Positions 11,077-27,723 of a stretch of DNA of 57,928 nt are shown in pieces. The notes beneath the pieces are model-generated. The model saw only the letters and a program-made list of their open reading frames with translations, was not told the DNA's origin and ran no database searches. This DNA is from Candidatus Thorarchaeota archaeon (GTDB lineage Archaea > Asgardarchaeota > Thorarchaeia > Thorarchaeales > Thorarchaeaceae): assembly GCA_003345555.1 (NCBI GenBank), contig PRDJ01000067.1, forward strand, positions 1-57,928, written 5' to 3'. Made by a program: the position numbers and the translations under genes. Numbering within the stretch: the stretch's first letter is position 1; each line of letters begins with the position of its first letter.

Positions 11077-11439
11077 CTAGAAGAACATGACCCTGTCATG
11101 CTTGAGGACATCGTTTACCATAGCGGCTGCGCCGGCTATCACGATTCTCTTGTCGCGGAAGTCCTTCTCGGTGAGCTTGCGGAACGTAGCAGAGTTGGAA
11201 CAGATCTCAATCTTTCCTCCTGCATCTAGGAAGGAGCTGATCAGGTCAGGCAGGGGTGGAAAGCCCGGAGCCTTGATCTTTTCTGCAATGCCTTTCTTCA
11301 TCAGATACACTGCGTCCATCATCAGGAAGATCTTCACGTCGACATCCAGTGTCTGTGCGGTTGTCCCGGTTACAAACGGTCCGTAGCAGCGTTCTGCAGC
11401 TTCTGGACCCCATTGTCCGACTATGTATAGGCTTGGCAT
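11077..11439 (-). CDS. DsrE-family sulfur-carrier-like protein
   Basis: A 120-residue DsrE/DsrF/YchN-fold protein. The pattern of an early strand (LYIVGQWG), the FLMMDAVYLMKKG segment and the late ICSNSATFRKL element with its cysteine is characteristic: the cysteine in GGKIEICSNS corresponds to the sulfur-carrying position in many DsrE proteins. Members pass persulfide sulfur to partners such as TusA. It is the second gene of a two-gene minus-strand unit behind a small membrane protein (13-base gap), and a TusA-family gene lies divergently just beyond, which supports a sulfur-relay module. Whether it serves thiolation or dissimilatory sulfur metabolism is not decided by sequence. Confidence 0.85.
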   Translation of the reverse strand: MPSLYIVGQWGPEAAERCYGPFVTGTTAQTLDVDVKIFLMMDAVYLMKKGIAEKIKAPGFPPLPDLISSFLDAGGKIEICSNSATFRKLTEKDFRDKRIVIAGAAAMVNDVLKHDRVMFF

Positions 11440-11452
11440 TAACTTGTCACCT

Positions 11453-11848
11453 CTAGACTAACGCTATCTGCGTGTAGTACAACACCATTCCGAGCGCCAG
11501 AAACAGGGTCACAAGTAGGTTTGAGATGTGAGAGCTGTGTATGGGCCCGCCCTGCATCGTCTTGAGCAGGATTGGTAGCACTTTCCCAAACTCCATCAAC
11601 GTTGCGACGAGCAGGAAGATGAAGTCGACTATCAGCAGAATATGCAACAGGTCAAACATGACATACATTGCCGGTGGGAAGAGCAGTTGGTAAAGGAGCG
11701 CAATCATTGCCACCAGCATCGCTATCATGAGCGTCATGACCTGGCTCATGAGATACATACCCATTCGTCTGGCAAGCATGAAACCCGAGAACATCGTGCT
11801 CATGCCCAGTGCGAACAGTATGAAAAGCATGATCTGGAATACAGCCAT
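11453..11848 (-). CDS. Small four-helix membrane protein
   Basis: A 131-residue hydrophobic protein with about four membrane segments, beginning MAVFQIMLFILFALGMS. Methionine is unusually frequent, especially in the first two segments. No family recognised. It is the first gene of the unit with the DsrE protein, separated by 13 bases, and diverges from a TusA-family gene 114 bases away. A role in moving sulfur compounds or anchoring the relay at the membrane is plausible by context only. Confidence 0.7.
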   Translation of the reverse strand: MAVFQIMLFILFALGMSTMFSGFMLARRMGMYLMSQVMTLMIAMLVAMIALLYQLLFPPAMYVMFDLLHILLIVDFIFLLVATLMEFGKVLPILLKTMQGGPIHSSHISNLLVTLFLALGMVLYYTQIALV

Positions 11849-11962
11849 GGTTTTCTACCTAATTCTCCGGAACCGCAGATTTGCTCAAATAACTCTGTCG
11901 AAAGAGGCGCTAGAGTAAGGAATAATAGGCCTAGTCCAAGAAGCAAATCTCGAGGTTCTAGA

Positions 11963-12202
11963 ATGCCGAATTACACTGTAGCTCGAGAGCTCGATGCATC
12001 CGGAATGAGATGCCCAATGCCCGTGCTTGAGATGAAGAAAGCGATTACCCAGATCAAGGTCGGTGAGGTTGTCAAGGTAATCGCAACTGATGTTGGCACG
12101 AAGAAAGACTTTCCTGCTTGGGCCGAACGAACGGGTAATGAGATTCTGGAAATGAAGGAAGAGAGCAACAGAATCATATGGTTCATCAAGCGCCTGAAAT
12201 GA
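11963..12202 (+). CDS. TusA/SirA-family sulfurtransferase
   Basis: A 79-residue TusA-like protein. The defining motif near the N-terminus is present: LDASGMRCPMPVLEMKKAI, with the persulfide cysteine C17 followed by the CPMP turn, then a helix and the strand pair GEVVKVIATD. TusA proteins shuttle sulfur as a cysteine persulfide. The ATG at 11963 is the right start: the frame is open further upstream to 11642, but that part is antisense to the membrane-protein gene. It is divergent from the DsrE unit, forming a compact sulfur-transfer locus. Confidence 0.9.
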   Translation: MPNYTVARELDASGMRCPMPVLEMKKAITQIKVGEVVKVIATDVGTKKDFPAWAERTGNEILEMKEESNRIIWFIKRLK

Positions 12203-14065: not shown

Positions 14066-15499
14066 GTGAAGACCGGAAACGAATACCTGCAGAAACTCTA
14101 TCAGATGAAACCGAATGTAATTATCGATGGGAAAAAAGTCAAACGTGACGACCCGCGACTTCAAGCAGTCGCTCAGATAATGGCATTAACATTAGATAAG
14201 GTCGAGGATCCGGAGTTCAAGGATCTTCTCAATGTAGAGTCTCAGAAGTTTGGAACAATCAGTCGATTCACGAATATCCATCAAAGTGTTGATGACCTTC
14301 TAAAGAAGCAGGAATTGACGAGAAAGTTATGTCGCGAAACCGGCGGTTGCGTTTTTCGGTGTATGGGCATTGACGCAATGAATGCATTGTCAATCATCAC
14401 TCATCGAGCTGAAGCAATGACTGGACAACCCTATAATCAGAGATTCTTGAAGTATCTAGACTACTGGCAAGAGAACAACATTGTCGGTAGTTGCGCACAG
14501 ACAGATCCCAAGGGAAATAGAGCTCTGAGACCTCATGAACAAGCAGACCCTGACCTATACCTCCGGGTCGTTGAGCATCGGGATGATGGTATTGTCGTTC
14601 GAGGAGCGAAGAATCACATAACAGCTGCTGCAGTAGCAGAGGAGATCATAGTCCTTCCCACACGAATGCTCACCCCTGAGGAAGATCAATATGCTGTTGC
14701 GTTTGCGGTTCCTGGCGATTGGGACGGCGTACAGCTCGTCACTCGCGCATCTAGCCACAAACGTGAGAGGTTCGCGTGTCCGATGGGCGAATTTGGAGAC
14801 GTGGAGAATTTCATCATCTTTGACGACGCCTTTATTCCGAATGATCGTGTCTTTCTGAGCGGACGCAAAGGAGAACATGCACTTGGAGGATTTGCCGCCC
14901 TGCTTTTCGCACTCTATCATCGACATAGCTATACCGGATGCAAGCCAGCAAGTTCAGAGATAATATTGGGTTTCAGTGCACTGGTAAGTGAGTATAACGG
15001 AATCGAGGACAAAACCCACGTGCAATCGAAACTTGCTGATTTGATTAGTGTAAGTGAACTGGTCTACGCAGCGGGAATTGCTGCAGCACATAAGGCATCA
15101 AAGGATGAATCAGGGACAATGATTCCAGATGCAGTCTTCTGTAATGTTGGCAGGAAACATGCAGGGAAGAGTTACTACCACGAGCTTGAGATTCTGTCTG
15201 ACTTAGCAGGAGGTCTACCTGCAACACTTCCTCACGAAGAGGACTTCTATGACGAGAGCATTGGACCACTCCTTCAGAAATACATCAAACGAAAAGAAGA
15301 CGTGTCGTCTGAAGACGTCTACAAGCTGTATAGAGCTCTCTCGGATATCCTATGTTCCTCGATTGGAGGTGTAACAGCAGTAGCTGGGCTTCACGGTGGA
15401 GGGAGTCCACAAATGGAGGATATTGCTATCCTGAAAGGGTATGACGTAGAGCTGAGGAAGAGAATCGCAAAGCACCTTGCAGGAATTCCGGAAAGCTAA
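14066..15499 (+). CDS. 4-hydroxybutyryl-CoA dehydratase-family protein, divergent paralog
   Basis: A 477-residue member of the FAD and [4Fe-4S] family of 4-hydroxybutyryl-CoA dehydratase/vinylacetyl-CoA isomerase (AbfD). The cluster ligands are kept: C95 and C99 in CVFRC, and the H-x6-C pair in YHRHSYTGC. This separates it from HpaB-type monooxygenases, which lack them. The segment equivalent to HQTGAINSHEH in the second paralog (24824) is HITAAAVAEEI here, so the active-site loop differs and the substrate may not be 4-hydroxybutyryl-CoA. Start GTG 14066 aligns with the family's N-terminus (KTGNEYLQKL); ATG 14036 is an alternative. It converges with the acyl-CoA synthetase gene. Confidence 0.85.
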   Translation: MKTGNEYLQKLYQMKPNVIIDGKKVKRDDPRLQAVAQIMALTLDKVEDPEFKDLLNVESQKFGTISRFTNIHQSVDDLLKKQELTRKLCRETGGCVFRCMGIDAMNALSIITHRAEAMTGQPYNQRFLKYLDYWQENNIVGSCAQTDPKGNRALRPHEQADPDLYLRVVEHRDDGIVVRGAKNHITAAAVAEEIIVLPTRMLTPEEDQYAVAFAVPGDWDGVQLVTRASSHKRERFACPMGEFGDVENFIIFDDAFIPNDRVFLSGRKGEHALGGFAALLFALYHRHSYTGCKPASSEIILGFSALVSEYNGIEDKTHVQSKLADLISVSELVYAAGIAAAHKASKDESGTMIPDAVFCNVGRKHAGKSYYHELEILSDLAGGLPATLPHEEDFYDESIGPLLQKYIKRKEDVSSEDVYKLYRALSDILCSSIGGVTAVAGLHGGGSPQMEDIAILKGYDVELRKRIAKHLAGIPES

Positions 15500-15647
15500 T
15501 CTTTCAGATTTGCTGTCGAAGTCCACGGGCTTGCTAAATCAGAGAATCGAATAAGGCATACTCCGAAGTAGTTGCAATGTTGAGAAGAACCTCTGATATG
15601 GTTTCAATATCAAGGCAGTATGATCTTGAGATGCTGAAGGCAAACTG

Positions 15648-17342
15648 TCAGTGTTTCTGTTCCTCTGCCCTCTTGGCTTCTTGCTCTCTCAGATCTCTTC
15701 GAAGCACTTTGCCCACTAGTGTTTCAGGAAGTTCCTTTCTAAATTCAATGAACTTGGGAACTTTGTAGGGTGACACACTTTTCCTGCAAAACTCCCGGAT
15801 TCCATTTTCAAGTTCGGCGCTTGCCTTGAACCCTTCCTTCAAGACTACATACGCCTTGACTAGTTCACTCCCCTTCAACTTCGGGTCTGGAATGCCAATG
15901 ACAGCCGCGTTCTCAATAGCTTCATGTTCAAATAGCACATCTTCGACCTCTCGTGGATAGACCTTGAATCCACTAACATCGATCATGTCCTTCTTCCTGT
16001 CCATTATGAAGAAGTAGCCATCCTCATCCATTCTTCCTATGTCGCCAGTCAAGAGCCATCTATCTTTGATTTGAGAATCAGTGGCCTCCGGTTTGTTCCA
16101 ATAACCCATCATGACTTGGGGCCCTCTGATCATTATCTCGCCCTGCTCTCCTACAGGCATAATCTTAGTGTAGTCGTCGGTATCTACGATTCTCACCTCT
16201 GTGTCTGGAAGTGGCACACCTATAGACCCTACTTTCCGCAATCCAATGATAGGATTGCTGTGAGTGACTGGAGAGCATTCGGTAAGACCGTATCCTTCAA
16301 TTATGACGCAGCCAGTTCTTTCCTCAAACTCATGCAAAACCTCGGGCGGCATAGCCGCAGCACCAGTATTGCAGAATCGTATTGACCTCAGGTCCTTTGC
16401 ATAGTCTTCAAGGTCATCTCGTTCCAATAGCTTCATGTACATCGTTGGCACGCCGGGAAACATCGACGGTTTGGTTTCTCGAACAATCTCGAATAGTGAT
16501 TTCTGATCTCGAGCATCAGGATTCAAGGCAATCCGAGAAGCATTGTATATCCATACATTCATGCAAACTGTCATTCCGTAAATATGGAATAAAGGCAAGT
16601 TAGTAAGTCCTGTCTCCTTTCCTTTCTCCATTTGCGAAGAAACCAAGGTGTATACAGCAATACAGTTTGAAAGCAAGTTATAGTGTGTAAGCATGGCTCC
16701 TTTCGGAAGTCCTGAAGTTCCACCTGTGTATTGAAGCACCGCGATTGTTTTCTTAGGATCGATTTCGAATTGTGGCGGATTGGGCTTTGTTCTGCTTATC
16801 AGATTCAGAAACTGCATTGTCCCCGATATCTCAGGGGGGTCTCTTGGAGCATTTGGGATGAAATCCATGACACTAGTAATGATAATGTTCCTGAGTCGCG
16901 TACGGTCTTTGATATTGTTGATTTTCTCAAGCTGAGCATCCCAAGCTATGATGGTTTCGGCCCCGGAATCATTGAGCTGGTACGCCAGCTCTGGCTCGGT
17001 CAATAACACGCTGCATGCCGTTACAATCCCGCCCGCTTTAAGAATCCCATAGAAACTGAATAGGAATTGCGGGAAGTTCGGAATCATGATTGCAACTGTA
17101 TCACCTTTCTTCACACCCAGATTCTGAAGCGCTGTAGCAAGTCGGTCAGCTATGTCCTTGAATTCCTTGTATGATATCTTCCTCTTCTGGAACCAAATCG
17201 CAGTATGATTTCCGAACTGATTTGCAGAATTGTCCAGTATCTCATATAGGTTCATTTCAGGATAGTCTATATGTTCGGGTACACCTTGGTCATAGTGCTC
17301 TAGCCATGGTTTAGCTGCATACGGGTCTTCGCTCATCTTCAT
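15648..17342 (-). CDS. AMP-forming acyl-CoA synthetase
   Basis: A 564-residue ANL-superfamily ligase that activates a carboxylic acid to its CoA thioester via an acyl-adenylate. Motifs are complete: the P-loop-like YTGGTSGLPKGAMLTHYN, YGLTECSP, the hinge region TGDIGRMDEDGYFF, DRKKDMIDVSGFKVYP, and the catalytic lysine near the C-terminus in GKVLRRDLRE. It resembles the FadD-like long- and medium-chain group, but acid specificity cannot be read. It is the last gene of the minus-strand unit that begins with a Liv-type binding protein, 12 bases after the HEAT protein, so the likely substrate is whatever the transporter imports. Start ATG 17342 has GAAGGAAG upstream. Confidence 0.92.
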   Translation of the reverse strand: MKMSEDPYAAKPWLEHYDQGVPEHIDYPEMNLYEILDNSANQFGNHTAIWFQKRKISYKEFKDIADRLATALQNLGVKKGDTVAIMIPNFPQFLFSFYGILKAGGIVTACSVLLTEPELAYQLNDSGAETIIAWDAQLEKINNIKDRTRLRNIIITSVMDFIPNAPRDPPEISGTMQFLNLISRTKPNPPQFEIDPKKTIAVLQYTGGTSGLPKGAMLTHYNLLSNCIAVYTLVSSQMEKGKETGLTNLPLFHIYGMTVCMNVWIYNASRIALNPDARDQKSLFEIVRETKPSMFPGVPTMYMKLLERDDLEDYAKDLRSIRFCNTGAAAMPPEVLHEFEERTGCVIIEGYGLTECSPVTHSNPIIGLRKVGSIGVPLPDTEVRIVDTDDYTKIMPVGEQGEIMIRGPQVMMGYWNKPEATDSQIKDRWLLTGDIGRMDEDGYFFIMDRKKDMIDVSGFKVYPREVEDVLFEHEAIENAAVIGIPDPKLKGSELVKAYVVLKEGFKASAELENGIREFCRKSVSPYKVPKFIEFRKELPETLVGKVLRRDLREQEAKRAEEQKH

Positions 17343-17354
17343 AGACTTCCTTCG

Positions 17355-18695
17355 CTACTGTCCACCTATTAAGTCGAGTGCCTCTTGAGCAGCCTCAGAA
17401 ACATAGTCATACTTGTCATGAAGCAAATTCTCTAGAGCTGGAATAAGGCTGGCGTTTGACACTCCTACCTTTCCAAGAGCCTCCGATGCACGCCATCTAA
17501 CATCCGGCTTATCATCGCCTAATGCATCCACGAGAGCAGGAATTGAAGTAGAAGCAGATGGACCCAGTTTCCCAAGGCTTAGTGCAGCTTCACGACGCAC
17601 AATGCTCTTCTCATCTGCCAGAGCATCCACCAATGCTTGGACAACTGAATCATCAGGAACTCCGATCTTGCCTAATGCTCTGGAAGCCTCTGCACGAATG
17701 TCAGTCCCTCCACTTTTCAAGGTCTCGATTAAAGTCGGAATTGCATCCACAGCCTCCTTGCCAATACCTCCAACCGTAGAGATTATTATAATCTTCATTT
17801 GTTTCTTAGCCCAGGGATATGAGGCCACTAATGCAGGAATTGCGTCTTTTCCAATTGACCGAAGCGCATCAGCTGCTTTTCCACGGACACTCTCAACTCT
17901 GTCCTTCAACAGTGAGGCAATAGAGCCGATTATCTTCGGGTCAGCTACTTTCATCTCACCCAAGGCTTCTATCGCTCCCTCCCGGACAACGGGATTCGGG
18001 TGGTTGATAACCTCTAATACGGATGGGATGGCTGGCTCACGAATCTGAACAAGGGTGTTTATTGACCTATATCGTACTCTCCAATCATCGTCTTCCAGAG
18101 TCCTGACTAGAGTTGGAATTGCCTCAGTTGAGCCCTTGCCGATTCTCTCTATAGCTTGAGCCGATGCTGTCCTTATGGTCCATCCTGAATCTGTCAGACT
18201 TTGTATTAATCTTGGAATCGCTTCGTGTGCACCATGTCCCATTCTTCCCAATGATTTTGCAGCTTCAGTTCGAACCTCTTCATCTTGATCATCGAGAGCT
18301 GCAACCAGGCTTGAAACAGCCACGTCTGATGCAATTCCTATTCTGCCCAGCGAGATTGCTGCCTCTTTTCTTACTGATACTTCTTGGTCAGTCAATAGAA
18401 TAGATAACTTGGGGATGGCGTCGACTGCACCCTCCCCGATTCTTCCAAGCGACCTTGCAGCTTCTCGACAGATACTCCAATCTTTATCCTCTAGGCAATC
18501 TACCAGTTTTGAAACACTGCTGGCGGCTTTTTCACCTAGTTCTCCCAAGGACAGTGCTGCATTGAATCGAATTGACCGAATGTCACTAGCTAGACACTCA
18601 ACTATCTCACCTATGATGCTTGAATCCTTCTCTGCTCTTGCTACAACTAGCTCGACTTTCGCATCACGCAAAAGGTCTTCCAGAGATGCCGACAC
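17355..18695 (-). CDS. HEAT-repeat (PBS-lyase type) protein
   Basis: A 446-residue soluble protein made almost wholly of about thirteen HEAT repeats of 31-36 residues. The repeat reads roughly AIPxLxxxLxDxxxxVRxxAAxSLGxIG, for example KEAAISLGRIG, TEAAKSLGRMG, REAALSLGKLG. There are no catalytic motifs. Such proteins are scaffolds. Its place between the transporter ATPase LivF and the acyl-CoA synthetase, with gaps of about 11 bases on both sides, is unusual and suggests that it holds the ligase or ATPases together at the membrane; that is inference. Confidence 0.9.
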   Translation of the reverse strand: MSASLEDLLRDAKVELVVARAEKDSSIIGEIVECLASDIRSIRFNAALSLGELGEKAASSVSKLVDCLEDKDWSICREAARSLGRIGEGAVDAIPKLSILLTDQEVSVRKEAAISLGRIGIASDVAVSSLVAALDDQDEEVRTEAAKSLGRMGHGAHEAIPRLIQSLTDSGWTIRTASAQAIERIGKGSTEAIPTLVRTLEDDDWRVRYRSINTLVQIREPAIPSVLEVINHPNPVVREGAIEALGEMKVADPKIIGSIASLLKDRVESVRGKAADALRSIGKDAIPALVASYPWAKKQMKIIIISTVGGIGKEAVDAIPTLIETLKSGGTDIRAEASRALGKIGVPDDSVVQALVDALADEKSIVRREAALSLGKLGPSASTSIPALVDALGDDKPDVRWRASEALGKVGVSNASLIPALENLLHDKYDYVSEAAQEALDLIGGQ

Positions 18696-18706
18696 TATGA
18701 TACCTC

Positions 18707-19420
18707 CTAAATCCCAAGATATACTCTCTTGATTCGAGGCTCCTTCTCGAGCTCTTCTCTTGTTCCACTCATCTCTATCTTTCCATCTTCGAGAACATAA
18801 ATGGTATCAGCAACTGCCATTGCCAATACTGCATCTTGTTCGACCAGGAGAGTTGTAGTCCCCTCTTGTTTTATCTGTAGTATGGCTTCAAAGATCCTGC
18901 TTTTCACCTTTGGCGCAAGTCCCAGTGAAGGTTCGTCCAGAAGCAAGAGTTTCGGATTGGCCATCAGTGACCTGGCAATGGCCAGCATTTGTTGTTCACC
19001 ACCACTCAGAGTGCCTGCTCGTTGTTTCATTCGTTCATGTAGTCTTGGAAAGATTTCAAACACGAAGTCCAAGAGTTTTGAGTACTTCGCTTTGTCTTTC
19101 AAAGTGAATGCGCCAAGCTGAATGTTTTCCATGACAGTCATATCATAGAACAGCCGTCTACGTTCTGGGCAATGAGCAATACCCCTTCCTGCAATCTCAT
19201 GTGCCTCCAGTTCGTCAATCCTTTCACCATTGAAGATGATTCTGCCGCGGTCTATCTCCTCCAGTCCCGATATTGCTCGAAGCAGAGTGGTCTTTCCAGC
19301 ACCATTTGGACCGATTACAGCATCTAGTGAATTGTCCTCCACTGTGAGATTAATCTCTTCGAGAGCTTTTGCTTTTCCATAGTAATGATAGACTTTCTTC
19401 AGCTCAAGCAAACCCTTCAC
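18707..19420 (-). CDS. livF: Branched-chain-type ABC transporter ATPase, LivF-like
   Basis: A 237-residue ABC ATPase. Walker A GPNGAGKTT, signature LSGGEQQ, Walker B LLLLDEPSLGLAP and the E-Q of VEQDAVLAMAVAD are all present; the last feature and the GLAP pattern are typical of LivF. I start at GTG 19420, overlapping the end of livG by 17 bases, because residues before it have no ABC character; TTG 19411 is an alternative. It forms the asymmetric ATPase pair with LivG. Family substrates include branched amino acids, amides and aromatic or alicyclic carboxylates. Confidence 0.92.
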   Translation of the reverse strand: MKGLLELKKVYHYYGKAKALEEINLTVEDNSLDAVIGPNGAGKTTLLRAISGLEEIDRGRIIFNGERIDELEAHEIAGRGIAHCPERRRLFYDMTVMENIQLGAFTLKDKAKYSKLLDFVFEIFPRLHERMKQRAGTLSGGEQQMLAIARSLMANPKLLLLDEPSLGLAPKVKSRIFEAILQIKQEGTTTLLVEQDAVLAMAVADTIYVLEDGKIEMSGTREELEKEPRIKRVYLGI

Positions 19421-20144
19421 CTCTGCCCAGATATGCCTCAAGCACAATCTTGTTGCTTGCGACCTCTTTAGGTGGTCCTTCTGCAATCAGCCTTCCTTGA
19501 TGCATGGCAATGACTCTGGGTACTAGTGTCATTAGCTCCCTCAGAACATGTCCAGTCATGAAAACGGTAACACCTTCCTCATGTAGCTGCTCAATCAGTC
19601 TGGTTATACCTGCACTCTCTTCATGAGCAAGACCGCTAAATGGTTCATCAAGAAGAAGAAACTCCGGATTTGTCCCAAGCGCCTTTCCTATTTCGAGTTT
19701 CCTCAGGTCCCCATGTGGCAAGATTACTGGAGGAAGTCTTGCTTTGTCTACTAAGCCAACTGACGCCAGAATCGAACTCGCAGCCGCATCTATTCCGACT
19801 TCTCCAAATGCCTCCCTTCCGCGAGGTGACAGGCAAGCAACTGAGATATTATCGAGAAGGCTGAGAAAACGAAACGAGCGAACCAACTGAAAGGTTCGAG
19901 CCAGCCCCAGATTGACAATCTGATAAGGTCTTTTTCCAGTTATGTCCACTCCGTTGAAACGGACGGAACCCGAGTTGGGTTTTTCAAACCCTGATATCAA
20001 CTGAAAAAGCGTGGTCTTGCCAGCTCCATTGGGTCCAATGAGGCCCAGAATCTCTCCTCGGTGTACCTCGAAATTGACATCATTGACAGCAGTCAGTCCG
20101 CCAAACTTCTTCGTTAGATTCTTTACTTCCAGAATCAGACCCAT
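19404..20144 (-). CDS. livG: Branched-chain-type ABC transporter ATPase, LivG-like
   Basis: A 246-residue ABC ATPase with Walker A GPNGAGKTT, the LivG-type Walker B LLLDEPFSGLAHEES and an H-switch-like TGHVLRE. The signature position reads LPHGDLRKLEIGKAL (normally LSYGxQR), the expected LivG-like slightly divergent form. Start ATG 20144 has GAGGAAGG immediately upstream and sits one base after the permease stop. It is the partner of LivF in the same operon. Confidence 0.92.
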   Translation of the reverse strand: MGLILEVKNLTKKFGGLTAVNDVNFEVHRGEILGLIGPNGAGKTTLFQLISGFEKPNSGSVRFNGVDITGKRPYQIVNLGLARTFQLVRSFRFLSLLDNISVACLSPRGREAFGEVGIDAAASSILASVGLVDKARLPPVILPHGDLRKLEIGKALGTNPEFLLLDEPFSGLAHEESAGITRLIEQLHEEGVTVFMTGHVLRELMTLVPRVIAMHQGRLIAEGPPKEVASNKIVLEAYLGRGEGFA

Positions 20145-20145
20145 C

Positions 20146-21126
20146 TTACCTTCCTCGTATCTTATCCCATAGATCCCGTACATGTTCTAAGAACGGATTC
20201 ATCACGCCTTCTTCAGAGAATCGGATAATAAGAATCAGAAGTGTAGCAAATATCAGTAACGAAGCTGCTGCTAGTGGCCTCAGGAACTCACTTAGTAATG
20301 TGAACAGGAATGATCCAACAATCGATCCATAGATTGTCGCAATCCCTCCAATAGAGGCCATTATGATTGCGTAGAAGGAGTAGAGTGGCTGATAAACAGC
20401 AGGATTTACCGCAGTTATGTCCAAGACGAAAAGAGCGCCTGATATTCCAGCAAATAGACCACTTACCATGAATGCGACAAGTTTGTAGACGGTTGTGTTA
20501 ATCCCTGCAGCGTCTGCGCCTACTTCATCATCTCTGATTGCTTTGAGGATTGTGCCAAGCCTCGAATCGACAATGGCACGCATAATGATCAATGAAGCAA
20601 CCATGAAAGCTGCCATGATATAAAATTCGACAAAGACGCTTCCGATATTGGGCAACGCAGAGATGCCCTCTGTACCGCCAAGCCAAGTCCCTGTTAAGAA
20701 CAGATTGTAGAGAATCAGCGCAAATGCCAGAGTCCCGAGAGCCAAATATGGTCCCTTCAGTCTTAGACATGGAATCCCTATTAGAAGACTGAATACCACA
20801 GCCCAGCCCGTACCAATGAAGATCGCAAGAAACCAGGGCGCTCCAACGAATTTTACAAATGCCGCTGTTACGTATCCTGATATCCCAAAAAAAGCTGCAT
20901 GCCCGAAGCTAACTTGTCCTGCAAAACCTGCTAGTAAGTCCCAGCTGGCAGCGAATATTGTAAGTATCATTGCAGTGATGACGATTCTTGCTAGATACTC
21001 CCTTCCAGTCAGTGGAACCAGTAGTAATCCCACTAAGCAGAGTAGTGTTATGCCACCCCGAAAGGAGAGAGCCCACACTCTGAAACGACTTAAGCGCGAC
21101 CGCCAATCGAACTGGAGTTTCATCAT
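20146..21126 (-). CDS. livM: Branched-chain-type ABC transporter permease, LivM-like
   Basis: A 326-residue permease with eight to ten membrane segments. The LivM signature around the middle is clear: LLAGFAGQVSFGHAAFFGISGY, followed by the EAA-like loop RLGTILKAIRDDEVGADAAGIN that contacts the ATPase, and GLFAGISGALF. Gene order livK-livH-livM-livG-livF with gaps of 1-3 bases or overlaps shows one transcription unit. The family imports amino acids or small carboxylates. Confidence 0.93.
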   Translation of the reverse strand: MMKLQFDWRSRLSRFRVWALSFRGGITLLCLVGLLLVPLTGREYLARIVITAMILTIFAASWDLLAGFAGQVSFGHAAFFGISGYVTAAFVKFVGAPWFLAIFIGTGWAVVFSLLIGIPCLRLKGPYLALGTLAFALILYNLFLTGTWLGGTEGISALPNIGSVFVEFYIMAAFMVASLIIMRAIVDSRLGTILKAIRDDEVGADAAGINTTVYKLVAFMVSGLFAGISGALFVLDITAVNPAVYQPLYSFYAIIMASIGGIATIYGSIVGSFLFTLLSEFLRPLAAASLLIFATLLILIIRFSEEGVMNPFLEHVRDLWDKIRGR

Positions 21127-21129
21127 TGA

Positions 21130-22023
21130 TTACTGCAGCCTCTTCTTTCCTAGCAGTCCTTGCGGTCTGACCAATAGCATTACAAGTATCACAATAAGCG
21201 GGACTATTTGAGAGAAACTCGGGCTTATGAGATAGTCAGTCAGTGTTGTTGCGTATCCCATTACATATGCACCAAGAATGCTCCCCGGAATACTGCCCAT
21301 ACCTCCAAAGATCGTTACTGAAAACGCAAGCAGAAGATATCCCCAGCCGATTCTCGGGGCGATATAATTCCCCGGAGCGTATAAGACTGCAGCAAACCCT
21401 ACAAGCAATGCTGATATCATTACACTAGTCATCATTACCATATCGGTGTTGATTCCAACGAGTTCCGCCGCTTCAGGATCTTGAGAGACTGCTCGAATCG
21501 ACTTCCCTATCGTCGATTTACTGATGAATAGGGTCACCAATGTAACTAGTATCACAGACCCAAATACCAACGCTAGTAACTGCGCTGGAAACGTTATTCC
21601 AAGGAGTGTGACGGTTCCTGGAACAACCGGCACAATGTAGTGAGTCTTTGGATCTCCTACGAATTTCACGAACTGTTCGAAAAAGAATGCCATTGCGAAC
21701 GTTACCAGCACGACGCCAATGTGCGATTTCTGTAGTGGCTTCATGAGACCCAGGTATGTGACTGCTCCAATCGTTACCACGGAGCTCAAACCCACAACTG
21801 CGGCTATGCCGAAAACAAGGGGATAGTATGATAGTCCAGGAATTGATGTCAAGAGATGGATAGTCCAATAGACTATGTAAGCTGTAATGAGGAAGAATGC
21901 CCCATGAGCCAGATTCAGCAGTCCTCCTACGCCGTATACCAGAGAGAACCCTAAGGCTAGGAGAGCCAAGAGGGCTCCTTGTATCGTGCCGAATATCAGT
22001 ATTTCTTCCAACAATATGCTCAC
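21130..22023 (-). CDS. livH: Branched-chain-type ABC transporter permease, LivH-like
   Basis: A 297-residue permease with about eight membrane segments. The LivH hallmark LVYGVGGLLNLAHGAFFLIT follows the first helix, the coupling loop reads TIGKSIRAVSQDPEAAELVGIN, and a G-rich segment FGGMGSIPGSILGAYVMG closes the transport core. It is separated from livM by 3 bases. A strong hairpin lies between it and the binding-protein gene, so it may be expressed less than the binding protein. Confidence 0.93.
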   Translation of the reverse strand: MSILLEEILIFGTIQGALLALLALGFSLVYGVGGLLNLAHGAFFLITAYIVYWTIHLLTSIPGLSYYPLVFGIAAVVGLSSVVTIGAVTYLGLMKPLQKSHIGVVLVTFAMAFFFEQFVKFVGDPKTHYIVPVVPGTVTLLGITFPAQLLALVFGSVILVTLVTLFISKSTIGKSIRAVSQDPEAAELVGINTDMVMMTSVMISALLVGFAAVLYAPGNYIAPRIGWGYLLLAFSVTIFGGMGSIPGSILGAYVMGYATTLTDYLISPSFSQIVPLIVILVMLLVRPQGLLGKKRLQ

Positions 22024-22068
22024 CTAACATTGAACCAGATGACTAGGAGTTGTTTCAAGACAAGAAAG

Positions 22069-22092
22069 CCCCCCCTATAAAAAAAGGGGGGG
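22069..22092 (-). terminator. Strong GC hairpin between binding protein and permease genes
   Basis: A perfect inverted repeat with 8-base arms (CCCCCCCT and AGGGGGGG) and an 8-base A/T loop lies 31 bases after the binding-protein stop and 45 bases before livH. On the minus strand the hairpin is followed by CTTTCTTG. Its position suits partial termination or RNA processing that would leave more binding-protein message than permease message, a familiar arrangement in ABC importer operons. The structure is seen; the role is inferred. Confidence 0.6.
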
Positions 22093-22123
22093 AGTCGTAT
22101 TCAACTGGTACCATGTCTGTAAC

Positions 22124-23509
22124 TTACGGGTTAATGCCCCAGGGCGGAAGTACCAATGGTGCTGTCACTATTGAGTCCGGATAGAGCAGACCCCCTGTTT
22201 TCACGACTTGCTTATGGCCACCTGCCTGCCATTGACACATCAGTGCCACGCTATAGATCTTGGGACCGATGTATCCCAGGAACAAATCATGACTCGAAGT
22301 GAAAGCAGTGTTTCCACCCGCAGCTTCGAACGGAGCAGTGATGTTCATATCTTCCAGATGGGGAATAATCAATGTCGAGTTAAACGACTGTGCTCGGTGG
22401 ATACCTTCTTTTAGAATGTACATGGAGTCATAGCTCCCTACTGCAGTATAGAGAGGTTCTGACTTGAACTTCGCAAGAAAGGCATCCCAGAATGGAATTG
22501 TCACTGCTGTCTTGTTGGTTCGGAGCGTGGACTGTAATTCGATTTCGTACTGACAGCCGCCACCGGTCTCGTTCCAATAGGAGTCAAGTTGGCTCATCAC
22601 GTCAATACCGGCCATGACAGTCTTTGGCTTTACACTAGCATACTGGGTACTCATGAGAATTCCACCCTGTGCAGAAATGATTGGAACTGTTATTTGAGCC
22701 CCCGCAGCATCAATCTGCTGCCAGTATGTTGCAAAGTTAGCAGCCTCAGCTGTAATTGGGTAAGGAACCTCCTTTACGACCGTCATATTGTATAACGGCA
22801 AGTACCCGTTGAGGAATTGACTCATACCCACAGTCCAATCGAGGTCTTCACGGATGATAGCGACTTTCGAAATAGTAGTGTTCAATACGGCACCCATGTA
22901 GCCCTTCAGATATATCAAGTACTTCAGAAGCGACATTGCTAATGAGGTGGAGTTAATTGGCATAGTACGGAAGAAGTACTTATAGACGGCATAGTTGTTA
23001 GTAACATTCGAACAGAATATATCGGTAGAAGCGCCTGTACCAAATAAGAGCATCTTCTCATCCATTACGATGTCTCTATATGCCAGCAACGATTCGGTCC
23101 TGAATCCGCCTATTATGAATTGGGCTCCATCTTCTGTGATAATCTTCGTTGCAGCTGCAGTCCCTTTAGATATATCAAGACTAGCATCAGCTTCAGCCGT
23201 GTCTTCTGCGACAAGTCCGAAGTAGTACGGTAGGCCACCAACGGTCACACCGCCTGCGCTGTTTATCTGATCGCACGCCAAATAAGCTCCCATCCATGCT
23301 CCTTCGCCCTGGATTTCAAACATAGGATCTAGGATTCCTACGACGATAATCCGTTCACGGGGAGTTCCAGCAGGAGCGCCAGGTGTGACTAGCTGACCTA
23401 TGACTACTGCACCATAAGGAGCAGCAGGAAGGAGTAGATATAGCCCGACACCTACGCCCGCTATTACTATGATGATGAGAGCTATGGCTAGGATTTGTTT
23501 ACTTTCCAT
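22124..23509 (-). CDS. Periplasmic-binding-type substrate-binding protein of Liv-like ABC importer
   Basis: A 461-residue extracytoplasmic binding protein. An N-terminal membrane anchor (about residues 6-28, QILAIALIIIVIAGVGVGLY) is followed by a type I periplasmic binding fold: IIVVGILDPMFEIQGEGAWMG at the start of lobe 1, LACDQINSAGGVTVGG, then AQFIIGGFRTESLLA. It shows several N-x-S/T sites, as expected for an exported archaeal glycoprotein. It is longer than typical LivK. It leads the operon behind a clear TATA box and a strong ribosome site (AAGGAG). The ligand is unknown; the acyl-CoA synthetase in the operon argues for a carboxylic acid over an amino acid. Confidence 0.9.
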   Translation of the reverse strand: MESKQILAIALIIIVIAGVGVGLYLLLPAAPYGAVVIGQLVTPGAPAGTPRERIIVVGILDPMFEIQGEGAWMGAYLACDQINSAGGVTVGGLPYYFGLVAEDTAEADASLDISKGTAAATKIITEDGAQFIIGGFRTESLLAYRDIVMDEKMLLFGTGASTDIFCSNVTNNYAVYKYFFRTMPINSTSLAMSLLKYLIYLKGYMGAVLNTTISKVAIIREDLDWTVGMSQFLNGYLPLYNMTVVKEVPYPITAEAANFATYWQQIDAAGAQITVPIISAQGGILMSTQYASVKPKTVMAGIDVMSQLDSYWNETGGGCQYEIELQSTLRTNKTAVTIPFWDAFLAKFKSEPLYTAVGSYDSMYILKEGIHRAQSFNSTLIIPHLEDMNITAPFEAAGGNTAFTSSHDLFLGYIGPKIYSVALMCQWQAGGHKQVVKTGGLLYPDSIVTAPLVLPPWGINP

Positions 23510-23570
23510 AGACTTCTCTCCTTCATCTCCTCTCCATCTGAGATGTAGTCGATTCTATAACTAAGGCTTC

Positions 23571-23580
23571 TATTTAAGCA
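23571..23580 (-). promoter_or_regulatory. TATA box of the importer operon
   Basis: On the minus strand the element reads TGCTTAAATA, centred about 66 bases before the binding-protein ATG at 23509. Transcription would begin near 23550, leaving a leader of about 40 bases that contains AAGGAGAG as the ribosome site. It is one of the best archaeal TATA matches in the window and would drive the whole seven-gene unit. Confidence 0.6.
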
Positions 23581-23773
23581 TTGGTGAATTTCTACTGCTT
23601 TTGCCCACACATTTGATTGAATTTCGGCAAAGAACCCTTTGAGCGAGCAGCAGGCGACTTAGCAACAGGCCTTGCGCCTGCACTGCCGAAGCATCTGTCC
23701 GAGTACTGTGGCTATTGATGTCGTGCTTATGCCTACTCCAACAAGACAATCATGAGACCGGCAAATCCTCGGA

Positions 23774-24658
23774 CTACTCTCGAGCTGGTTCCCATTCCGA
23801 AGGTATGTGCAATCGCGGTTCTTGCTTGTAGTAGGCCAAGACCTTTTCGAACTCATTGTTGACGTTGACAGTCATCCTTGCGACGCGGTCGTACAGCCTC
23901 AAGGTCTCTTTGTTTGGGCGTGGGTCACTCAGTCTGTGGTCTAGGAATCCCCAGCCCCCATCCCAAGGCAGAATCTCGATCTTGTTGAGAGATAGAAAGT
24001 CCCGCACGACATTTCCCCAGACGAACCAAGGTCCGTGCATGTCCATAATGCCGAATTTGTCAGGGTCAGCTTTTCCCGTGCGGTACATTTCCCAAGCCCT
24101 GCCGCCGGTGATAAATCCCTCTGGTGGAACGTCCAACGAGTCAAATGAGATGTGAAGGGCTTCCCTTTGAAACGAGTCGAGCTGAGAGTCTACCATTGTC
24201 CAACGTTTCAGTTTCGCATTCCAGTATTCGCAGACCCAATGATCCTCATAGTGGTCGGGCAAGAAATACGTGCCGAACCCACAGCGAGCTCTTGCTGGTA
24301 TGCCCTTATGCCGCAGTATTGTACAGAGAAGGACAGAGAAATCCCTGCAATTTCCCACTTGTCGCTTGTTCAAAGGTCTAGGTACAGTCAGCGGCTGGTC
24401 GTTCTCTTCGGACATGTGTGCAAGTTTCTCAACGACCGGGCGAATCTGGAGGGTGAGCTTTTGATGTTCAGTCAAAGCCAAGCCCATTCGTTCAGCCCAG
24501 AAGACATGGACCAAATTGCTTTGAACGACCTGACAAATCGAGACCATGTCGTCAGGAATGCCTGCCAGCATAGATGCATGGGTGCCAGGGTTAGTCATCA
24601 CGCCCGGGGTCGAGTAGAACGAGAGAGGATTCACGACTTGCCGCTGGAATCCGGGCAC
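23774..24658 (-). CDS. Transglutaminase-like cysteine protease-fold protein
   Basis: A protein of up to 294 residues with the transglutaminase core. The catalytic cysteine sits in GNCRDFSVLLCTILRHKG, the histidine in DHWVCEYW and the aspartate in WTMVDSQLD, in correct order and spacing for the archaeal and bacterial Transglut_core family. Such proteins are usually peptidases or amidases. No signal peptide, so it is likely cytoplasmic. The C-terminal 100 residues (after MYRTGKADPDKFGIMD) are conserved-looking but unassigned. Starts GTG 24658 and ATG 24598 are both possible, neither with a strong ribosome site. It is divergent from the dehydratase gene at 24824. Confidence 0.85.
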   Translation of the reverse strand: MPGFQRQVVNPLSFYSTPGVMTNPGTHASMLAGIPDDMVSICQVVQSNLVHVFWAERMGLALTEHQKLTLQIRPVVEKLAHMSEENDQPLTVPRPLNKRQVGNCRDFSVLLCTILRHKGIPARARCGFGTYFLPDHYEDHWVCEYWNAKLKRWTMVDSQLDSFQREALHISFDSLDVPPEGFITGGRAWEMYRTGKADPDKFGIMDMHGPWFVWGNVVRDFLSLNKIEILPWDGGWGFLDHRLSDPRPNKETLRLYDRVARMTVNVNNEFEKVLAYYKQEPRLHIPSEWEPARE

Positions 24659-24775
24659 TTAAGTCTGGGGGCGTTCTCCTCTCGGCGACAATCGGCACAT
24701 AGCGCATTCTTCCAGCTCTAGAACACGATGCGACACTAGAAATGAGCAAGAACCTGCATCTATCGAACGGGCTAA

Positions 24776-24788
24776 GAGCTAATATGTG
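24776..24788 (+). promoter_or_regulatory. Candidate TATA box for the second dehydratase gene
   Basis: GAGCTAATATGTG lies about 42 bases before ATG 24824, giving a predicted start of transcription near 24807 and a short leader. GGAG at 24811-24814 serves as ribosome site. Visual call. Confidence 0.4.
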
Positions 24789-24823
24789 TCCATACTCGTA
24801 CAACACGAACGGAGTAATCGCAT

Positions 24824-26287
24824 ATGCCACTCATGACAGGCAAGGAATATCGGGACAGTCTCAGAAAGAGGAAACCGCTCACGATATTTCTCCACGGAGA
24901 GAAGATCGAGAACCCTACTGAGCATCCAATAATAAAGGCATCAATAAACTCAGTTGCACTGACATATGATTTTGCTTCTGACCCTCAGTATCGTGACGTA
25001 ATGACCGCCAAGTCTTCACTGACCGGCAACACGATTAATCGCTTCTGTCATCTGCACCAAAGCACCGACGACCTACAGAATAAGGTTCGTATGTTGAGAC
25101 TGCTTGGCCAAAAATGTGGAACGTGCTTCCAGAGGTGCGTGGGCATGGACGCATTGAACGCGGTCTTCATCACGACGTACGAAATTGACCAGACTCATGG
25201 AACAGACTATCATGACCGGTTCACAGAGTATGTGAAGTTGGCGGAGAAAAAGGACTGGACCATTGACGGAGCCATGACTGACCCAAAGGGGGACAGGAGC
25301 AAGCGTCCTTCTGAACAGAGGGACCCCGATGTCTACGTCCATGTTGTGGAGCGACGAAAAGACGGAGTTGTCATTCGTGGTGCAAAGGCTCATCAAACCG
25401 GGGCCATTAATTCGCATGAACACCTCATAATGCCTACCGCCTCACTGCAAAGTGAAGATCGTGACTATGCCATTTGCTGTGCCGTCCCTTCAGACTCGCC
25501 AGGTATCACCTACTATTACGGGCGACAGTCGTCAGATATGCGTAGACTCGATGAAAGTACAGAGGGGGACATCGATTGTGGCAATCCGATCTACGGAGGC
25601 CAAGAATGTCTCGTTGTCTATGACAACGTGTTTGTACCGAACGATCGCATCTTCATGAACGGGGAGACCGAGCTCTGTGGAAGACTTGTCGAATCATTTG
25701 CGGCCTATCACCGCCAGAGTTACGGGGGCTGCAAAGTAGGCGTTGGAGATGTCCTAATCGGTGCAGCTGCTACAATCGCGGAGTACAACGGCGTCCTTCA
25801 AGCATCCCACATCCGAGAGAAACTCACAGAAATGACGCATCTGAACGAGACCCTATATTCCTGCGGCATGGCATGCTCGGCGTGTGGTACCAAGACTCCC
25901 GCAGGAAACTACCTTGTGGATATCCTGCTCGCGAATGTATGCAAACAGAACGTCACGAGATTCCCCTTTGAGATTGCCCGCATTTTACAGGATATTGCGG
26001 GTGGACTCTTCGTCACCTGCCCGAGTGCCCGCGAGCTGCGAAATCCACAGACTCGCAAGGTAATCGAGAAGTATTTGGCCGGGGCCGAAGGAGTTGACAC
26101 GGTGAATCGCATAAAGATGCTTAGACTGATCGAGAACCTCACCCTGGGAAGGGCAGCAGTTGGTTACTTGGCAGAGTCAATGCACGGTGCGGGCTCGCCT
26201 CAGGCACAGAGAATCATGATTCATCGTTTGTCGAATATCGAAGAGAAGAAGAAGATGGCCAAACAGCTGGCACAAATCGAGGAATAG
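24824..26287 (+). CDS. abfD: 4-hydroxybutyryl-CoA dehydratase / vinylacetyl-CoA isomerase
   Basis: A 487-residue AbfD-family enzyme that dehydrates 4-hydroxybutyryl-CoA to crotonyl-CoA by a ketyl-radical route using FAD and one [4Fe-4S] cluster. All cluster ligands are present with the spacing of the clostridial enzyme: C101 and C105 (CFQRC), H296 and C303 (HRQSYGGC), compared with C99, C103, H292 and C299. The family motifs MTDPKGDRS (about 151-159) and AHQTGAINSHEH (189-200) are intact, so this is the more canonical of the two paralogs. In archaea the enzyme acts in the hydroxypropionate/dicarboxylate-4-hydroxybutyrate cycles or in 4-aminobutyrate fermentation; no other cycle gene is in view. 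Confidence 0.92.
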   Translation: MPLMTGKEYRDSLRKRKPLTIFLHGEKIENPTEHPIIKASINSVALTYDFASDPQYRDVMTAKSSLTGNTINRFCHLHQSTDDLQNKVRMLRLLGQKCGTCFQRCVGMDALNAVFITTYEIDQTHGTDYHDRFTEYVKLAEKKDWTIDGAMTDPKGDRSKRPSEQRDPDVYVHVVERRKDGVVIRGAKAHQTGAINSHEHLIMPTASLQSEDRDYAICCAVPSDSPGITYYYGRQSSDMRRLDESTEGDIDCGNPIYGGQECLVVYDNVFVPNDRIFMNGETELCGRLVESFAAYHRQSYGGCKVGVGDVLIGAAATIAEYNGVLQASHIREKLTEMTHLNETLYSCGMACSACGTKTPAGNYLVDILLANVCKQNVTRFPFEIARILQDIAGGLFVTCPSARELRNPQTRKVIEKYLAGAEGVDTVNRIKMLRLIENLTLGRAAVGYLAESMHGAGSPQAQRIMIHRLSNIEEKKKMAKQLAQIEE

Positions 26288-26325: not shown

Positions 26326-27723
26326 ATGGGCAATGTCACCTTGGATGTGTGCCGAGGAAACGAAAAGGGGTCCATTGAGGTACCCGACGAGTCAGTATAC
26401 CTTGGTGCTCAAGGGTTGACATCTATCGACCTGCGCCCACTCTCAGAGTCAGGAAAACTGCAGAATCTGTGGTTATATAATAACCAAATCAGTAGCTTGG
26501 ACCTGACGCCTCTGGCTTCCTGCTCTCGCCTCCGTTCTCTTTCCTTGCGGGACAACTGTCTCGACTCACTGGATTTGGTGCCACTTCAGAAATGTGCTCG
26601 GCTTGAAGATCTCGACTTGTCAGATAATAGAATGACAGCAGTAGACCTTGGACCTCTTGGCAGCTGTAGCAACCTCCACCGTCTCGATATCAGCGGCAAT
26701 TCCCTCAATCGAATTGTGTTACAACCCTTGGTTTCCTGTTCAAGTCTCAGAGCCCTAACAATGGGACAATCCGAATCGGGTTCTCCGGAGTCTGCCAAGC
26801 CAGAGGGAGGCATGGATATGAAACAGGGTTCTGATTCTCATCTTGCTGAGGCTGTTGATGTAAGTCCGTTGTTCTGGTGCGATCAGTTGTCCGCCGTCAC
26901 GGTCAGAGGGGAAGTCGGTCTGACGCTGGACCCTGCTCTCTGGTACATCGGGGCAGCAAAGGTCTTTTCAAACACGGAGATGGTGACATCTGCTCTGCAC
27001 GATAAGTCCTCTCCGATATTAGCTTGGATGAACAAGTCGCTATTCTCTAGGTTGGGGCCTCTCAGCTATGAAGCAGTCGTCACTCAGACCAGTACTCAAG
27101 CACTTCAAACCATGATTACTGGCAACATCAGGAAAGTGTCAAAGAGGTACTGGTTTCATGCACAAAAGGGTCTGCTCGAAGGGTTTGCGCTGCGAGAGCT
27201 TTCAGGATATGATGGTAACCCGCTATCTATCTTGGACCTGCCATCCTGCCCCCAAGAGTACGCTTCACTTAGGACTGCCTTGCGGAGCCATGTTGTAGAG
27301 TTAGTTCGCAAGCAGATTGCTGCAGGTGGGCCCACGCTATTCATAGACGTTGACGCTTTGCTCACCGACGATGAATCAACGTTGGCTGAGGCGGTCGTAC
27401 GGGCTAGGCGGGAGGAAATTGACAGACTAAGTGTGCCAACTGATGGGCATTTCGCGGACATCAGCCGACTAATCGTAACAAGCTATGGGCATTCAATTGT
27501 CAGGGCTCTAGGCGAACAGCGGATGAGGATCCCTTTGATGGATTTCGAAAAGGTTCTCGCTGCCCTAAGAGATTCAGGGTTTAGTATCAAGAGTGACCGT
27601 GGAAAGCCTGGTAGATTCAGGCTCCCTGTTGCCCCAAAGGTTTCTGGTAGCCTGATCAGTTTCGTTGTCGAAAGCAGTCTAGACCTCTTGCCATCGAGAC
27701 CAGCGACTATCACGAATACTTGA
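26326..27723 (+). CDS. Leucine-rich repeat protein with unknown C-terminal domain
   Basis: A 465-residue soluble protein. Residues about 28-150 form five or six leucine-rich repeats of 23 residues with the pattern LxxLxLxxNxLxxLDLxPLxxC; the repeated DL-x-PL and a cysteine at each turn are distinctive. A polar linker (about 150-175) rich in S, G and E leads to a last repeat-like stretch, then a C-terminal region of about 250 residues (ALWYIGAAKVFS onward) with mixed helices and no recognised motif. LRR modules bind other proteins. It follows the dehydratase gene by 38 bases and could be co-transcribed. Confidence 0.85.
   Translation: MGNVTLDVCRGNEKGSIEVPDESVYLGAQGLTSIDLRPLSESGKLQNLWLYNNQISSLDLTPLASCSRLRSLSLRDNCLDSLDLVPLQKCARLEDLDLSDNRMTAVDLGPLGSCSNLHRLDISGNSLNRIVLQPLVSCSSLRALTMGQSESGSPESAKPEGGMDMKQGSDSHLAEAVDVSPLFWCDQLSAVTVRGEVGLTLDPALWYIGAAKVFSNTEMVTSALHDKSSPILAWMNKSLFSRLGPLSYEAVVTQTSTQALQTMITGNIRKVSKRYWFHAQKGLLEGFALRELSGYDGNPLSILDLPSCPQEYASLRTALRSHVVELVRKQIAAGGPTLFIDVDALLTDDESTLAEAVVRARREEIDRLSVPTDGHFADISRLIVTSYGHSIVRALGEQRMRIPLMDFEKVLAALRDSGFSIKSDRGKPGRFRLPVAPKVSGSLISFVVESSLDLLPSRPATITNT

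Follow-up and report, generated by a model that had tools for sequence, protein, structure and literature searches.

Of 22 COG0683 binding proteins of Rhodopseudomonas palustris with mismatched annotation, very few shifted with leucine, isoleucine, valine, or short amides, and for many, the ligands were aromatic, fatty, or dicarboxylic acids. Two binding proteins encoded next to the pim operon have ranges that agree with that of the acyl-CoA ligase PimA (PMC3223731). Here, we describe a locus in a 57,928-nucleotide contig (PRDJ01000067.1, our C67; hereafter, the window) of a Candidatus Thorarchaeota archaeon (assembly GCA_003345555.1; 82 contigs, 2.28 Mb, 93% complete). The locus encodes a Liv-family importer, a HEAT-repeat protein, and an acyl-CoA synthetase (ACS) in one seven-gene unit, next to a diverged member of the 4-hydroxybutyryl-CoA dehydratase family (HCD_A). 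We propose, with a probability slightly above one half (about 0.54), that the unit, joined by HCD_A in some Thorarchaeota, serves organic-acid uptake, CoA activation, and a further step carried out by HCD_A. The proposal draws on gene content, the order and recurrence of the unit, the tendency of HCD_A to lie near, and to occur together with, the solute-binding protein (SBP) gene, base composition, and the missing Glu455 of HCD_A, all of which were observed directly.

The unit lies on the minus strand (15648-23509) in the order SBP-LivH-LivM-LivG-LivF-HEAT-ACS. These assignments come from family-profile matches, which agree with an earlier description of the unit based on the sequence alone (the original prediction). 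Intergenic distances from SBP to ACS are 100, 3, -38, -83, 11, and 12 bp. Two plus-strand genes of the HpaB/4-hydroxybutyryl-CoA dehydratase family, HCD_A and HCD_B, flank the unit. Both give HpaB_N/HpaB matches, and a PF11794 scan of this genome, which is 93% complete, picked up no further gene. Both keep the [4Fe-4S] ligands C99, C103, H292, and C299 (numbering of the 4-hydroxybutyryl-CoA dehydratase AbfD), as had been noted at the outset. HCD_A and the unit comprise the following features:

14066..15499, plus strand: HCD_A, diverged 4-hydroxybutyryl-CoA dehydratase/HpaB-superfamily protein (HpaB_N/HpaB matches, residues, linkage)
15648..17342, minus strand: ACS, AMP-forming acyl-CoA synthetase (AMP-binding and AMP-binding_C)
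17355..18695, minus strand: HEAT-repeat protein between LivF and ACS (HEAT repeats; putative scaffold)
18707..19486, minus strand: LivF-like ATPase (ABC match; start codon uncertain, family match from about 19402)
19404..20183, minus strand: LivG-like ATPase (ABC match, BCA_ABC_TP_C tail)
20146..21126, minus strand: LivM-like permease (BPD_transp_2)
21130..22023, minus strand: LivH-like permease (BPD_transp_2)
22124..23509, minus strand: SBP, solute-binding protein with an N-terminal helix (Peripla_BP_6; helix at residues 3-25 of the model)

According to this proposal, a carboxylic acid would enter the cell through the predicted ABC importer of the Liv family and be joined to CoA by the AMP-forming ligase; the resulting thioester would then be converted by HCD_A, which is predicted to be an iron-sulfur flavoprotein. 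The HEAT protein may hold the ligase at the ATPase of the importer. The product would presumably enter beta-oxidation-type enzymes encoded elsewhere in the genome, in which 3-hydroxyacyl-CoA dehydrogenase and acyl-CoA dehydrogenase domains are encoded. The substrate is probably an acid and not an amino acid, most likely a hydrophobic one (i.e., fatty, dicarboxylic, or aromatic); 4-hydroxybutyrate as the substrate is unsupported.

The unit recurs in other Asgard genomes. Among 227 such genomes, scanned with E value cutoffs of 1e-40 for SBP and 1e-200 for ACS, SBP was matched in 51 and ACS in 50. Both occurred together in 44 (Fisher P about 7e-33, relatedness ignored), SBP without ACS in 7, and ACS without SBP in 6. 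The two genes lie within 10 kb of each other in 32 of the 44 genomes (sharing a strand in 26 and on opposite strands in 6), so that the expected conservation of the block in relatives was borne out; in the remaining 12, they lie on different contigs. We checked gene order in 20 SBP-bearing stretches from genomes other than that of the window. The full seven-gene order was found on one strand in eight (L158, L073, L177, L178, L179, L180, L181, and L187, the last with SBP split over two frames) and with SBP inverted in two (L183 and L184), and it was cut by a contig end in eight (L071, L080, L159, L160, L161, L163, L165, and L182). Because the seven-gene order recurs in this way, the arrangement is more than chance. 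Named records carrying the unit or its parts belong to Thorarchaeota and Lokiarchaeota. A protein search in which 8,000 candidates were scored yielded 377 SBP relatives at an E value of 1e-5; the best 120 of these are Asgard wherever an organism is named, many being nameless. In the ACS tree, which took in no sequence from the sister species OWC3, the window (genus g1) pairs with OWC2 (genus g6; 100/99) inside a clade of g6 sequences (98/96), and the g6 member G006 falls outside that clade, grouped with G206 (85/83). This pattern would fit transfer between Thorarchaeota.

A Peripla_BP SBP, two BPD_transp_2 permeases, and two ABC ATPases encoded together constitute an importer of the Liv/HAAT type. 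The ACS of the window has both domains of an AMP-forming acyl-CoA synthetase, an intact P-loop, and the YGxTE, TGD, and GK motifs; among 13 ACS sequences, the GK pattern as written fits that of the window alone, and the P-loop pattern fits 9. Its score with the NCBIfam PimA model TIGR03205 (361.7 bits) is under the cutoff of 705.6 bits, and on this score we rejected its assignment as a PimA dicarboxylate-CoA ligase. The HEAT protein, fixed between the importer ATPase and the ligase, is the unusual part of the unit, and its gene holds the same place in Thorarchaeota and Lokiarchaeota units.

HCD_A is associated with the unit by co-occurrence, position, and base composition. In the 43 genomes of the family to which the window belongs, HCD_A (at least 70% identity, over 160 residues only in G022) was present in 11 of the 14 SBP-bearing genomes and in 0 of the 29 lacking SBP (P = 6e-8). 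The same association held within genus g6 (8/9 with SBP versus 0/7 without; P = 0.0014) and outside it (3/5 versus 0/22; P = 0.0034), relatedness being ignored in all three tests. HCD_A lies within 10 kb of the unit in 5 of the 11 genomes (five Thorarchaeota, including the window), in two distinct arrangements: immediately upstream of SBP and codirectional with it, at a distance of 190 to 205 bp (G216 [Yap200.bin7.15], G211 [E44_bin77], and G213), or convergent with ACS (the window and OWC2 [G210]). The OWC2 HCD_A is 92% identical to that of the window, and one metallo-beta-lactamase-family gene separates it from ACS. GC content at fourfold-degenerate sites was 0.394 for HCD_A and the seven unit genes versus 0.520 for 34 hand-picked other genes of the window (P = 1e-6). 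The bPH2 gene, which adjoins HCD_A, is likewise low (0.398; 108 sites).

The best PDB match of both flanking genes is AbfD (1u8v), with 668 bits for HCD_B and 323 bits for HCD_A; against hydroxylases of known structure, HCD_A reaches at most 160 bits, versus 323 for AbfD. Relative to AbfD, HCD_A carries Ala in place of Glu455, Phe in place of Gln101, Gly in place of Ala460, and Gln in place of M149, and at these four positions (101, 149, 455, and 460) it differs from HCD_B, a difference not mentioned in the original prediction. We take Glu455, Gln101, and the cluster ligands to be important for AbfD catalysis. Residues were counted in 114 HCD_A relatives (the best 120 of 5,153 matches minus 6 of 440 amino acids or fewer). 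C99, C103, H292, C299, Y296, and K300 are kept in 114/114, T190 in 112/114, and E257 in 107/114. At position 455, 111 sequences have Ala, 3 have Gly, and 0/114 have Glu; Gly at position 460 and Gln at position 149 occur in 114/114; and at position 101, Phe (73 sequences) is commoner than Gln (37 sequences). In a midpoint-rooted tree of 29 sequences, HCD_B grouped with AbfD and HCD_A fell in a separate clade (100/100), within which Phe101 is limited to one six-member Asgard subclade that includes HCD_A. The loss of Glu455 is not unique to one clade, because two Asgard sequences without it (L020 and L038) group on the AbfD side.

These features suggest that HCD_A is likely a diverged iron-sulfur flavoprotein, possibly a dehydratase or isomerase of altered chemistry. 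Since Ala replaces the AbfD Glu455, 4-hydroxybutyryl-CoA dehydration is not the natural prediction for it. We rejected two assignments for HCD_A: a classical 4-hydroxybutyryl-CoA dehydratase, given Ala at position 455 and a clade apart from AbfD, and HpaB (4-hydroxyphenylacetate 3-monooxygenase), given a TIGR02309 score of 190.8 bits against a cutoff of 480.2. Judged by record names among the best 120 of the 5,153 matches, members of the HCD_A clade also occur in Archaeoglobus, Dehalococcoidia, Anaerolineae, and Peptococcaceae, and the records, where named, are mostly labeled 4-hydroxyphenylacetate or aromatic ring hydroxylase, although HCD_A is nearer to AbfD and fails the hydroxylase cutoff. 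Settling its reaction would correct many hydroxylase annotations.

Several observations weigh against the proposed system. SBP homologs without the unit exist (G148, G151, and contig C30 of G025), and 2 of the 20 stretches checked (L185 and L186) are of this kind. Those that bear on the substrate could point to an importer of branched-chain or aromatic amino acids, with the ligase acting on the deaminated acid or merely adjoining, and those that bear on HCD_A could point to a passenger gene. The fold neighbors of the SBP model include binders of leucine, 4-hydroxybenzoate, and amides, with about equally close scores. In some relatives, the unit is bordered by peptidase genes, of family M3 in three Thorarchaeota and of family M28 in three Lokiarchaeota (for each family, one was scanned). 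We also compared 59 SBP sequences with LivJ, whose ligand residues we take to be S79, A100, T102, Y202, and E226; the hhalign pairing is weak (24% identity, probability 61%), and all of the following positions depend on it. The partner of Ser79 has a hydroxyl (Thr in 50 and Ser in 9), and that of Glu226 is Asp in 52 and Asn in 7. The partner of A100 is Gly in 59/59, and that of T102 is Ser in 33, Ala in 25, and Thr in 1, with an invariant Thr adjoining.

The amino acid reading, which also has the Liv-family subunit composition in its favor, is the best supported of the alternatives, although we consider it unlikely. Against it, the partner of Tyr202 in the same pairing is aliphatic or Cys in 59/59 (Ile in 32, Val in 22, Met in 2, Leu in 2, and Cys in 1; Ile277 in the window), and SBP scores only 26 bits with PRK15404, the NCBIfam Liv binding-protein model, versus a cutoff of 477. 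Furthermore, the ligase is retained in the unit across Thorarchaeota and Lokiarchaeota, and the R. palustris COG0683 proteins cited above rarely bind leucine, isoleucine, or valine.

A second alternative, on which we place still less weight, is that the importer-ligase unit is real and HCD_A is carried along outside its pathway. HCD_A is unlinked in G020, where it lies at 0.50 Mb and SBP at 2.08 Mb on one contig (1.6 Mb apart), and it is missing in three SBP-bearing Thorarchaeota that are 83 to 90% complete (G001 [OWC3], G006, and G206). No HCD_A was seen beside Lokiarchaeota units among the stretches examined, and in family f18, 10 genomes carry HCD_A (71 to 74% identity), with SBP in 0/10. 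It is also unlinked in G022, where it lies 118 kb from SBP and 11 kb from an ACS fragment; in that genome, SBP and a partial LivH (L076) are about 120 kb from LivF, HEAT, and a partial ACS (L077). HCD_A and SBP are on different contigs in G217 and G221, and HCD_A reaches the contig end, or nearly so, in G208 and G209. A passenger role is countered by the two arrangements in which HCD_A adjoins the unit and by its presence in most SBP-bearing genomes versus none of those without SBP, both family-wide and inside g6.

Two features, one of which (the transglutaminase-core gene) was not mentioned in the original prediction, lie upstream of SBP and outside the conserved set:

23774..24658, minus strand: transglutaminase-core protein, between SBP and HCD_B
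24824..26287, plus strand: HCD_B, close relative of 4-hydroxybutyryl-CoA dehydratase/vinylacetyl-CoA isomerase

HCD_B keeps every AbfD position checked and falls in the AbfD clade, as expected of a 4-hydroxybutyryl-CoA dehydratase. Its neighborhood in OWC3 is syntenic (adenine deaminase, CofE, a leucine-rich repeat [LRR] protein, and HCD_B, followed further on by bPH2 and the 12285 gene). In OWC3, other genes occupy that place; the unit, HCD_A, and the transglutaminase gene are absent from it, and the transporter is on another contig. HCD_B (76 to 85% identity) was found in 19 of the 42 other family members; a twentieth match, in G020, was the HCD_A of that genome at 38% and was not counted. 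In 10/10 other Thorarchaeota with both genes, HCD_B is off the contig of SBP; several of these contigs are short, and the strongest cases of separation are OWC2/G210 (whose SBP contig spans 151 kb) and OWC3 (by synteny). Fourfold-site GC is host-like in HCD_B (0.54) and in the transglutaminase gene (0.56). Across the family, HCD_B occurs in 11/14 genomes with SBP versus 9/29 without (P = 0.008), and no clear association is seen inside g6 (9/9 versus 5/7; P = 0.18) or outside it (2/5 versus 4/22; P = 0.30); we therefore read the family-wide co-occurrence as reflecting shared genus membership. Because of the synteny, contig linkage, and fourfold-site GC, we place the two ends of the island at HCD_A and SBP. 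HCD_B, which we ruled out as a member of the set, resides in the locus separately.

The idea that HCD_B dehydrates 4-hydroxybutyrate or a comparable hydroxy acid after its import and activation is suggested by the intact AbfD positions of HCD_B, its distance of 1.3 kb from SBP, and the three functions in one stretch, but it is very improbable in light of the syntenic HCD_B without the block in OWC3, its place on other contigs elsewhere, its presence in nine Thorarchaeota without SBP, and its host-like GC. The original prediction had joined importer, ligase, and both dehydratase-like genes in one set for a carboxylic acid, possibly a hydroxy acid: the importer-ligase pairing stands, with HCD_A accompanying a conserved block, whereas HCD_B is not supported as a member and 4-hydroxybutyryl-CoA dehydration is not what HCD_A would suggest. 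A full gene set for the dicarboxylate/4-hydroxybutyrate cycle was reported for two Lokiarchaeia metagenome-assembled genomes (PMC9802188). This cycle is a possible home for HCD_B-type enzymes and therefore another reason to keep HCD_A and HCD_B apart.

Other gene neighborhoods were also recorded. In three Lokiarchaeota stretches of genus g50 (L178 by Pfam; L179 and L181 by BLAST cluster), genes for PcrB, UbiA, an epimerase, an aldehyde dehydrogenase, and an M28 peptidase point towards the unit on the same strand, and ferredoxin and aldehyde:ferredoxin oxidoreductase genes are convergent with it, downstream. An M3-peptidase-family gene is divergent from SBP in the Thorarchaeota stretches L158 and L163 (BLAST cluster) and L165 (Pfam). 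In further stretches, SBP lies without the unit (L079) or alone on a short contig (L074), or its match is weak (L090). HCD_A-family genes in L171 (G195; neighbors by Pfam) and L172 (G028; neighbors by BLAST cluster) lie near 3-hydroxyacyl-CoA dehydrogenase and luciferase-like monooxygenase genes. In OWC3, the place of the island (L072, 11741-14334) holds, by eye, a GNAT-like open reading frame (ORF) and a 427-amino-acid membrane-transporter-like ORF. An LRR protein is encoded beside HCD_B in the window (26326-27723), and a 42%-identical copy lies on the same side in OWC3, with a 920-amino-acid ORF intervening. Elsewhere in the window (11077-12202), DsrE and DUF5400 genes face a TusA-like ORF (by eye), which suggests a sulfur relay.

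The original prediction knew of no described archaeal locus with this set, and we likewise found none: judged by titles and the starts of abstracts, the unit is undescribed in the Thorarchaeota, Lokiarchaeota, and Asgard literature covered, from which subscription journals are mostly absent, and on the same basis it is not described in PMC9802188, PMC10116835, or PMC8359953. If the proposal is true, a carbon source and its entry route would be named for Asgard archaea. Most of these archaea are known only from assembled metagenomes. HCD_A is singled out of two neighboring dehydratase-like genes as the one worth assaying, and the HEAT protein between importer ATPase and ligase offers a testable case of transport-coupled activation. 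A bolder extension, which we regard as rather doubtful, would be an Asgard vectorial thioesterification, in which HEAT docks ACS on LivF, the incoming acid being captured there in the form of a CoA thioester, and the HCD_A clade represents a large, unrecognized group of [4Fe-4S]/FAD radical enzymes that act on CoA thioesters without the catalytic glutamate.

Compared with E. coli LivJ/LivK-LivHMGF, the Asgard unit has the same five subunit types. In the 10-kb stretch of the E. coli liv locus that was compared, which ends inside livG, neither a ligase nor a HEAT gene is present; the Asgard SBP and LivJ share 24% identity in the hhalign alignment, with a nonaromatic partner for Tyr202. The R. 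palustris binding-protein pair RPA3723/RPA3724 is presumably of the Liv type. The genes of this pair and of its ABC transporter adjoin the pimFABCDE operon, with an acyl-CoA ligase gene (PimA) feeding beta-oxidation (PMC3223731), and the Asgard ACS resembles this ligase with 362 bits in the NCBIfam PimA model. Unlike in pim, the Asgard transporter unit includes the ligase gene, which follows a HEAT-repeat gene, and in some Thorarchaeota the unit is accompanied by a gene of the HCD family. HCD_B resembles AbfD (1u8v) and vinylacetyl-CoA Delta-isomerase (6vjr) as a close relative in the AbfD clade. HCD_A shares with AbfD the cluster ligands, Y296, K300, T190, and E257, whereas its clade differs in E455 (A), A460 (G), and M149 (Q), and HCD_A of Thorarchaeota and their nearest Asgard relatives differs in Q101 (F). 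Importer and ligase genes are known as neighbors; what is new here is the HEAT protein, together with the diverged HCD member.

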